From the NCBI RefSeq assembly GCF_014637725.1, contig NZ_BMFC01000004.1:124001-188000 (forward strand): a stretch of 64,000 nt of DNA, written 5' to 3'. The notes below the pieces were generated by a model. It was not told the origin of the DNA and searched no databases. It was given only the letters and a program-made list of their open reading frames with translations. This document shows, in pieces, positions 17,227 to 60,999 of the stretch. This DNA is from Marivita lacus. GTDB taxonomy: Bacteria; Pseudomonadota; Alphaproteobacteria; Rhodobacterales; Rhodobacteraceae. A program made the translations under genes and the position numbers. Numbering within the stretch: position 1 is the first letter of the stretch; each line of letters begins with the position of its first letter.

Positions 17227-17580
<354 letters not shown>

Positions 17581-17760
17581 TTACCTAGTCTGGCTCAGTC
17601 AAACCCGCCAGCCCCTTTTGACCTCAAATTGGTGTCAGGCCTTTAGCGGTCCGAAAAGACAGGCTTTTCCGACCCTCCCGAGGGTCTGAACGAACAAGAG
17701 ATGGGCAGGGCATGAACAGCGCGTGGCATGTGGGCGCAGAGCTTGCGCGCGCCTGCAGTT

Positions 17761-17775
17761 GTTCTATGTTTGTTC
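17761..17775 (+). promoter_or_regulatory. LexA (SOS) box, GTTC-N7-GTTC
   Basis: GTTC-TATGTTT-GTTC is a perfect match to the alphaproteobacterial LexA operator. TATGTT inside it can be a -10 element with TTGCGC at 17743-17748 as -35 (16-bp spacer), placing the transcription start at about 17777, on or next to the ATG at 17778. Binding of LexA would block this promoter directly. Confidence 0.75.
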
Positions 17776-17777
17776 AC

Positions 17778-18197
17778 ATGCGTATCGTCACCCCCCGCCC
17801 CGCCCAGACCGACTGGCCCCGTCCGCCATCCTGCCTGCGGGCCGACCAGTTGCGCCTGCCGCCTGACGGCGCGCGGATCGCGGTGGCGGGGCTCGTGATC
17901 CTGCGGCAGCGGCCCGGCACGGCCAAGGGTGTGATCTTTCTCACACTCGAGGACGAGACCGGCACGGTGAACATCATCGTCTGGCGCAAGCTCTATGAAC
18001 GTTACCGCCGCGCGGTGATCGCCGGGCGGATGCTGCGCGTGACCGGACGGCTGCAAAGCGAAGGCGACGTGATCCATGTCATCGCCGAGGTGATCGAGGA
18101 CATCTCGCCCCTGCTGGACCAGCTTCTGGCCCCCGCGCCGGAGGACTCTGCAGAGGATCGACCAGAGGCGCTTTCACGAGGCCCGCAAACAGGCTAG
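17778..18197 (+). CDS. Stand-alone C-terminal OB domain of DnaE2 (imuC), internally deleted remnant or mini-protein
   Basis: The 139-residue ORF matches only the C-terminal OB-fold of the error-prone polymerase DnaE2/ImuC: VAGLVILRQRPGTAKGVIF, LTLEDETGTVNIIVW and GRLQSEGDVIHVIAE are the conserved strands. The polymerase, PHP and HhH regions (about 1000 residues) are absent, and no imuA or imuB is adjacent. A perfect LexA box ends 2 bp before the ATG, so an SOS promoter has been kept or fused to the surviving tail; the mRNA would be nearly leaderless. The frame is intact from the box to the stop. Either a relic of a large in-frame deletion of an imuAB-dnaE2 cassette, or a retained nucleic-acid-binding peptide. 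An in-frame ATG at 17712 is possible but would place the operator inside the gene. Confidence 0.7.
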   Translation: MRIVTPRPAQTDWPRPPSCLRADQLRLPPDGARIAVAGLVILRQRPGTAKGVIFLTLEDETGTVNIIVWRKLYERYRRAVIAGRMLRVTGRLQSEGDVIHVIAEVIEDISPLLDQLLAPAPEDSAEDRPEALSRGPQTG

Positions 18198-18239
18198 ACT
18201 GCGCCCGAGCAGAAACAGTCAAACAGGCGCACATTCTCC

Positions 18240-18755
18240 GTGACCCCCCTCCCGTCAACGATCCGGGCATTGTGGGCCGTGGCCTTGGCCACCCTCGCAG
18301 CCTGTTCCGGACCGCTGCCCTTGGGTGAGGATGCCGCCACCCCGCCGGTGCCCGATTTCGCCTCGGCGCAGATCGCCCCACCCCCCGGCGTCAATCCCGA
18401 CGGCTGCTGGGTACGCGACATAGCCCCGGCCGAATTGGAAACCGTCACCCGTCAGATCGAGGTCGCGCCCACGCGGTTCCGCACCGAAACGGTTCAGGTG
18501 ATCAAACGCGAACGGCAAGAGCTGATCTTCGAGACCCCCTGCCCCGATGCGCTGACCCCCGATCTGATCTCGACCCTGCAACGGGCACTGGACGCACGCG
18601 GGCTGTACCGGGGTCCTGTCACCGGGGTGATGGATGTCCGCACCCGGCAGGCCGTGCGCCGCTACCAGTCGGGCCGTGGCCTGCCCAGCGGGCTTCTGTC
18701 GATCCAGTCGGCCCGCGGCCTCGGGCTGCTGGCGACACCGCGCGACCAGCTTTGA
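18240..18755 (+). CDS. Peptidoglycan-binding lipoprotein
   Basis: A 171-residue lipoprotein: lipobox LATLAAC with Cys22 after a short hydrophobic leader, a Pro-rich linker, and a C-terminal PG_binding_1 domain (about 105-165; LQRALDARGLYRGPVTGVMDVRTRQAVRRYQ). It probably attaches to the inner face of the outer membrane and contacts the cell wall. The start is a GTG with a weak Shine-Dalgarno. It stands 42 bp after the DnaE2-like ORF, so SOS-driven read-through into it is possible. Confidence 0.8.
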   Translation: MTPLPSTIRALWAVALATLAACSGPLPLGEDAATPPVPDFASAQIAPPPGVNPDGCWVRDIAPAELETVTRQIEVAPTRFRTETVQVIKRERQELIFETPCPDALTPDLISTLQRALDARGLYRGPVTGVMDVRTRQAVRRYQSGRGLPSGLLSIQSARGLGLLATPRDQL

Positions 18756-60273: not shown

Positions 60274-60468
60274 ATGGGCATCAACACCGAACGCGACATC
60301 GAAGCCAACCTGCAAATCGGCCCGACCGATCTTGGCATGATACGGCTGTTTGTTCTTGCCGATGGCCTCGAGATCCCGATGGATTTCACTCCCGAGGAAG
60401 CCGACGAAATCGCCGAGGAAATCCGCCTCGCCGCAACCGCCGCACGCAAGGTCAAGCCCAAGCGCTGA
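60274..60468 (+). CDS. DUF6324-like small protein
   Basis: A 64-residue acidic protein beginning MGINTERDIEANLQIGPTD. The ATG follows GGAG by eight bases. It resembles the DUF6324 family of Rhodobacteraceae; the C-terminus is basic (KVKPKR). Its last 17 bp overlap the convergent mmcB 3' end (60452-60468). Function unknown. Confidence 0.7.
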   Translation: MGINTERDIEANLQIGPTDLGMIRLFVLADGLEIPMDFTPEEADEIAEEIRLAATAARKVKPKR

Positions 60469-60931
60469 GCATCGCCTCCGGATCGCGCAGCGCGTGCAGC
60501 CGCCGCGCTGCGTGCATCGCAAACTTGCGGACCAACGTGCTGCGCCGCGCCGATGCCAGCTTGTCTTCCGGTGCCATGCGTACGATTTCCGCATCATAGC
60601 CGTCCGCGATGATCAGCCCGGTCTCAATCGGCAGCAGTTCTGACGGAAACTCCAGATCGACCGCCCAGAAGTATCGGTCACACCAGTCCAGATACCCTTC
60701 CCATTTCTGGTCCGACTGGAAATCCACCCGCGAGGATTTGCATTCGACAATCCAGATCTCGCCTTTCGGGCCCAGCGCCATCACGTCAACCCGCAACCCG
60801 CGATCCGGCACGAATTCCTCGATCACCGCGAACCCGTGGCTCGCAAGGTGACGGCACACCCCGCGCGCCAGAAGGTGCCCCGGCTGAACATCGGCCCCGC
60901 GGCCCAAGCGTGGATCGAATACGGAATTCAT
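60452..60931 (-). CDS. mmcB: MmcB family DNA repair protein
   Basis: A 159-residue protein of the MmcB/DUF2161-related nuclease-like type: the core RVDVMALGPKGEIWIVECKSS has the D-(x)n-E-x-K pattern of PD-(D/E)XK nucleases. Caulobacter MmcB is SOS-regulated and contributes to mitomycin C resistance. The ATG at 60931 fits GGGCGGT just upstream. A perfect LexA box lies 14-28 bp before the start. Confidence 0.88.
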   Translation of the reverse strand: MNSVFDPRLGRGADVQPGHLLARGVCRHLASHGFAVIEEFVPDRGLRVDVMALGPKGEIWIVECKSSRVDFQSDQKWEGYLDWCDRYFWAVDLEFPSELLPIETGLIIADGYDAEIVRMAPEDKLASARRSTLVRKFAMHAARRLHALRDPEAMLSAWA

Positions 60932-60944
60932 ACCGCCCATAGTT

Positions 60945-60959
60945 GAACAAAGTGTGAAC
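60945..60959 (-). promoter_or_regulatory. LexA (SOS) box of mmcB
   Basis: On the minus strand GTTC-ACACTTT-GTTC, a perfect alphaproteobacterial LexA operator, 14 bp upstream of the mmcB ATG. Confidence 0.85.
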
Positions 60960-60999
60960 AAAAATCAAGCCACCTGCAGGGGTGATCCAAAAATACCCC

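Follow-up and report, generated by a model that had tools for sequence, protein, structure and literature searches.

A free-standing OB-fold gene behind a LexA-type box in Marivita lacus, probably the detached C-terminal domain of the translesion polymerase DnaE2

The closest described system is the ImuA-ImuB-DnaE2 mutasome, in which DnaE2 is also known as ImuC and the genes form one operon. The genome of Marivita lacus contains the same parts and LexA-type boxes, which suggests a similar way of working, but here the parts are four separate genes and DnaE2 comes in two pieces. Several DnaE2 proteins without an OB domain were noted by Timinskas and Venclovas (PMC3919608, as far as its accessible part goes); the same domain is missing from the DnaE2 described below, with the difference that here it is encoded by a separate gene, whereas the accessible part of that paper mentions no OB elsewhere. 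Stand-alone ImuB-C proteins of mutasome variants show that a mutasome domain can exist as a gene of its own (accessible parts of PMC6511836 and PMC12926913), although these represent another domain in other lineages and occur without ImuA, unlike the split DnaE2 here. The terms 'OB domain' and 'OB-fold' are absent from the accessible text of PMC12926913, which lists 11 mutasome types. The OB of Pol III alpha (DnaE1) is homologous to the free OB but is a covalent part of the polymerase, where it is followed by a further C-terminal domain (PMC3919608, accessible part). For Dinoroseobacter shibae, a plasmid cassette is named in the accessible part of PMC9426580, and predicted LexA sites are given in PMC6473078, in the available main text of which 'dnaE2', 'imuA' and 'OB-fold' do not appear. 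What is already in print is the OB-less DnaE2 (PMC3919608, in its accessible part); for a DnaE2 OB encoded in trans, no report was found at title and abstract level, with the subscription literature largely outside the scope.

The analysed stretch of 64,000 nucleotides, referred to as the window, belongs to the M. lacus genome (G000). The first-pass annotation had described a LexA operator 2 bp before the ATG of a 139-codon ORF, and the sequence bears this out: the box GTTCTATGTTTGTTC, of the pattern GTTC-N7-GTTC, is followed after 2 bp by an ATG at 17778, and the stop codon ends at 18197. The features of the locus are:

17227..17550, minus strand: 2Fe-2S ferredoxin gene (PF00111), the divergent neighbour by which the conserved location of the OB gene is recognised
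17761..17775, plus strand: LexA-type box GTTCTATGTTTGTTC, from the sequence and from its recurrence at short-frame OB loci (78/85 with a strict box)
17778..18197, plus strand: free DnaE2 OB gene, 139 codons, from profile matches, genus orthologs and dN/dS
17814..17828, plus strand: WPRPP at residues 13-17, a candidate motif for the docking of free OBs, from the conservation of WPxPP
17874..18125, plus strand: OB fold, residues 33-116, from the AlphaFold2 model and Foldseek matches to OB-fold proteins
18240..18755, plus strand: peptidoglycan-binding-domain lipoprotein-like gene (PF01471), downstream of the OB gene

The lipoprotein-like gene is found 3′ of the OB in many named loci and is a synteny marker outside the system. 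An upstream start at 17712, giving a 161-aa frame, was rejected: in relatives the box and the ORF are 1, 2 or 3 bp apart, which makes a frame through the box untenable. A sigma-70 consensus scan of 17560-18300 found no promoter; the conserved spacing between box and start makes a leaderless OB mRNA plausible.

The assignment of the ORF to the C-terminal OB domain of DnaE2, likewise proposed earlier, holds. The ORF matches positions 942-1041 of the 1047 in the DnaE2 profile NF004225 (E 4e-32, 111 bits) and Pfam PF01336, and it stays below the curated whole-DnaE2 cut-off of 939 bits, containing the OB part only. Its AlphaFold2 model is an OB fold, with mean pLDDT in blocks of 92-95 over residues 21-110 except for 67 at residues 41-50, and Foldseek ranks OB-fold proteins highest, among them Stn1/Ten1, RPA and class II aminoacyl-tRNA synthetases. 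Its strands and helices follow one another as they do in the OB of a fused DnaE2 from the family that was also modelled (residues 974-1054, mean pLDDT 74.7). By sequence alone, no clear relative was found among solved chains (best E 0.24), the Pol III alpha chains 2hpi, 3e0d and 5fku giving weak matches (E 0.44-1.5). The profile matches, the model, the fold search and a tree in which free OBs fall with fused ones all place the protein as a DnaE2 OB domain, the nearest named relative being that of Marivita cryptomonadis (92% identical). A feature peculiar to the free domains is the WPxPP motif directly N-terminal of the fold, present in 33/33 free OBs of the tree set; by script it was detected in 74/81 free OBs and 0/36 fused OBs, and two of the seven misses (L054 and L152) do carry it before a mis-set start. 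For docking in trans, WPxPP is the candidate that suggests itself.

The lack of imuA, imuB and the remainder of the polymerase is true of the window but not of the genome, and the earlier suggestion of a partner DnaE2 encoded elsewhere finds its likely counterpart in a DnaE2 core of 994 aa at G000:C1:424378-427269. The core (L118) scores 1221 bits against NF004225, above the 939-bit cut-off, and covers positions 4-938, while the window ORF covers 942-1040, which makes it a DnaE2 without exactly the OB. The complementary ends recur in 17/17 genomes of the genus, where the core stops at 938-944 and a separate ORF runs from about 941 to 1038-1045. PHP, polymerase, finger and HhH domains are all present in the core, and its alignment with E. 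coli Pol III alpha spans the catalytic region, with PDIDVDF against PDFDVDF and KVDVLAL against KFDFLGL, stretches which we take to hold the catalytic aspartates. An ImuB homolog lies at G000:C1:242242-243918 and an ImuA candidate at G000:C1:23684-24136, the latter by a weak match (E 5.7e-8) for which relatives give stronger ones. ImuA, with this reservation, ImuB and a DnaE2 catalytic core are accordingly all encoded, and together with the OB they form four genes at four separate places; the genome has neither an imuA-imuB-dnaE2 operon nor a split cassette of whole genes. In some relatives (G047, G113) imuB adjoins the core. Ordinary operons with a one-piece DnaE2 are seen at six fused-type loci opened with their flanks (L121, L122, L123, L126, L130, L131), where ImuB adjoins a DnaE2 that is 1103-1165 aa long and has SRDFH at its end, and an ImuA-like ORF precedes the ImuB-DnaE2 pair.

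The distribution of the two pieces was surveyed in 149 genomes of the family, one per genus. Among the matches listed, a free OB accompanies the OB-less DnaE2 in 55 of the 57 genomes that have only this form (the misses being G060 and G080) and occurs in none of the 64 that have only a full-length DnaE2 (Fisher p 1.4e-32, a value that ignores descent). Both forms are present in one further genome (G051), six have an OB-like short frame without a listed core, five are ambiguous and 16 have neither. One genome first filed as having both forms (G025) is counted as fused with 63 others because its dnaE2 ends 16 bases or less from the end of contig C2, its OB match starts at base 3 of C2 and its core groups with the fused ones. 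Core matches reach down to about 1e-180, and genomes filed without a core, except G067, may contain small core fragments; five of the six with an OB-like frame and no listed core (G037, G077, G107, G111, G134) are fragmented assemblies and have further matches beyond those listed or matches at contig edges, and G140, filed with neither, has a second match beyond those listed. In G080 only 222 bp of contig follow the ferredoxin gene, so that the sequence breaks off near the expected start of the OB, and the missing OB is therefore probably an assembly gap. In G060 the core is present and no OB was found; its best ferredoxin match is 44% identical, and the place of the OB was not found either. 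G067 (7 contigs, 100% complete) has a free OB (L157/L179), ImuB (L177) and ImuA (L198), each with a strict box; no DnaE2 core was found among its two DnaE2-profile matches in all. G051 is D. shibae, which has the split set on the chromosome (L125, L183, L175, L193) and a complete fused imuA-imuB-dnaE2 cassette (L126) on its 126-kb plasmid (NC_009957.1).

The association also holds when descent is considered. On a DnaE1 species tree of 69 of the 149 genomes (33 split, 20 fused, 13 with neither, plus G051, G060 and G067), there are 12 independent pairs with a difference in the split core, and the free OB differs in the same way in 10-11 of them, in the opposite way in none and not at all in 1-2 (median p 0.002; N_G075, on a long branch, was left out of this test). 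The fused DnaE2 goes opposite to the split core in 6-11 pairs and never the same way. Two unlinked genes have thus been kept and lost together, often with a fused DnaE2 in their stead. Fused DnaE2 is plasmid-borne in several roseobacters, which suggests how the replacement occurs; of 30 listed rows, 22 carry the annotation error-prone DNA polymerase or dnaE2.

LexA-type boxes are the second trait that the pieces share. In the 64-kb window the box pattern occurs three times against 1.99 expected by shuffling, which is not unlikely by itself, and what makes the box at the OB gene significant is its conservation across OB loci. A strict box is present at 78/85 short-frame OB loci, and in 67 of these 78 the start codon lies 1-3 bp past it; a chance box is ruled out by this conservation of box and spacing, not by the pattern count in the window. 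The 85 loci combine named and unnamed sets that overlap, with two rows repeated, and leave out L018-L029, which share contigs with genus loci. Two of the seven loci without a strict box (L086, L090) are pieces of full-length DnaE2; among the other five, the box has one mismatch in L010 and is decayed in L054, and none is visible in L058, L059 and L152, the last two inspected by eye only. At the cores, 25 of 44 boxes are strict, 18 have one mismatch and one core lacks a box, this last (L129, G029) being a frame in which the beginning of the gene is absent. On its own, a box with one mismatch is no rarity within 150 bp; the 18 are counted because all read GAAC-N7-GAAT and 17 of them sit 26-43 bp 5′ of the start, the remaining one (L213) lying 94 bp before it. 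Boxes also precede ImuA at 20/20 and ImuB at 12/12 opened loci (for ImuB with positions read by eye). A putative LexA-type box thereby stands upstream of the OB, core, ImuA and ImuB genes, and LexA control with SOS induction of all four may be inferred from this arrangement. In many of the 44 regions upstream of OB-less dnaE2 (e.g. L118, L207-L226), a GACTC element is seen some 5-25 bp 5′ of the box.

The OB domain is under purifying selection. An ortholog of the free OB is found in 17/17 genus genomes, with a median dN/dS of 0.153 for the OB ORF, 0.100 for the domain and 0.303 for the ends, compared to 0.120 for the DnaE2 core (medians over 135 or 136 of the 136 genus pairs), and it is the value of 0.10 that argues for selection on the domain. 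The place of the gene is likewise conserved. The same ferredoxin gene is near the OB in 39/42 named loci, at less than 700 bp in 32 and at 1.6-5.6 kb in seven; the three exceptions are L024, cut by a contig end, and L058 and L059, which lack the gene. The latter two are Roseovarius loci that have a free OB without a box and away from the ferredoxin gene, and by eye a tRNA-like stretch is visible 5′ of the OB in L058. An empty site, with the ferredoxin, lipoprotein and DegP genes together, was found in five of eight opened fused genomes (G071, G151, G139, G053, G028), and in these five the 1500 bp next to the ferredoxin gene contain neither an OB match nor a strict box. Since the fused genomes occupy scattered positions between split ones on the species tree, the empty site fits both gain and loss. 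An assembly error hiding a full dnaE2 at the locus was considered and discarded, as the same layout recurs in the 17 genomes of the genus and across many other genera.

As to the origin of the split, the tree set contains 33 OB-less cores, 6 from the genus and 27 from other genera (11/17 genus genomes being left out of the core and OB trees). These cores form one clade with support 100, and in an OB tree of 121 columns the free OBs group with the OBs of sister fused DnaE2s, without being resolved as one clade. A single split from the DnaE2 of this lineage fits these two trees. Class-wide, with one genome per family, DnaE2 is above the cut-off in 50/115 genomes, and the matches ending at 938 are only those of G000 and G186, both of the Marivita family; one further match (G259) stops at 915, within a frame of 1133 aa. 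In another family of the class, a second DnaE2 is encoded in two adjacent frames (G224:C12:23925-27004; profile 3-567 and 585-1047). An HPR motif, as found in fused tails, is present in 3/28 split-core tails and is reached by 4 of 5000 shuffles, the motif having been picked after seeing the tails; this is suggestive only of an OB excised from inside DnaE2 with the old tail staying on the core.

Taken by computation, the complementary ends of the split, the joint retention and loss of its pieces, purifying selection, conserved boxes and a conserved place are observed, and a split DnaE2 with an OB acting in trans, the OB, core, ImuA and ImuB being under separate boxes, is in our view the probable explanation. 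The OB domain would have left the polymerase gene in the ancestor of this lineage and been kept behind its own LexA-type box, the core with its PHP, catalytic, finger and HhH parts remaining at another locus with a box of its own, and ImuA and ImuB being separate and boxed as well. Upon DNA damage LexA would be inactivated and ImuA, ImuB, core and OB produced together; the OB may then attach in trans to the core (or ImuB), perhaps through WPxPP, and would hold the template DNA in translesion synthesis as the covalent OB does in ordinary DnaE2. We infer the steps from induction to template holding, including LexA control, assembly in trans, WPxPP docking and the translesion role, from the gene anatomy and from established knowledge of LexA and DnaE2. 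Against the split reading stand G067 without a core, G060 without an OB, the boxless L058 and L059 off the ferredoxin place and the limited resolution of the OB tree.

Some of these cases would suit an SOS-induced DNA-binding protein in its own right, one that no longer completes DnaE2 and acts for ImuA/ImuB, DnaE1 or single-stranded DNA in general while the OB-less core works alone: G067 has the OB, ImuA and ImuB without a core, G060 a core with no OB found, and such OB folds bind single-stranded nucleic acid in several proteins. That free OB and OB-less core are retained and lost jointly is difficult to reconcile with this, as is the lack of a free OB in full-length-DnaE2 genomes (except G051) despite their DnaE1 and often ImuA/ImuB, and we consider such a role unlikely. 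A regulator or competitor dampening the polymerase, close to the dominant-negative partner for a DnaE2 encoded elsewhere raised by the first-pass annotation, might be read from D. shibae, in which the free OB and a plasmid full-length DnaE2 coexist. A dominant-negative partner of a complete DnaE2 does not fit M. lacus because the DnaE2 elsewhere in its genome lacks this very domain; in split genomes the partner carries no OB against which to compete, and, among the matches listed, the genomes with only a full-length DnaE2 have no free OB at all, which leaves it highly improbable. The history proposed at the outset, an in-frame deletion of an imuAB-dnaE2 cassette, has in its favour that no polymerase core lies beside the OB within the window, but it is contradicted by the conservation of the gene throughout the genus and in many other genera, by its steady place at the ferredoxin gene and by the distant DnaE2 that lacks the OB. 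Absence from close relatives or a dN/dS near 1, which were to mark a dying relic, is the opposite of what is seen, and with box and spacing conserved as well a relic is scarcely credible.

The split DnaE2 reading bears on the OB itself. An OB that has left the polypeptide yet stays tied to its polymerase across many genera amounts to a natural experiment on the role of the domain, and that role in DnaE2-type translesion synthesis becomes addressable through one small gene with the catalytic subunit untouched. Some of the OB-less DnaE2 sequences reported earlier may be explained by free OBs, and the mutasome would here be held together by regulation, with a box per gene, rather than by an operon. 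A bolder extension, which we regard as rather doubtful, is that the OB is a fourth, exchangeable mutasome subunit docking by WPxPP on ImuB/ImuA and DnaE2, its supply tuning translesion synthesis, and that it serves with another polymerase in lineages like G067.

The window has a second LexA-type box, GTTCACACTTTGTTC, at 60945-60959 on the minus strand, before an MmcB-like DNA repair gene at 60452-60961 on the same strand (PF06319, E 3.3e-46). MmcB is reportedly an SOS gene, from work in Caulobacter. The box overlaps the listed TTG start of the gene, and an in-frame ATG lies 4 bp past it.
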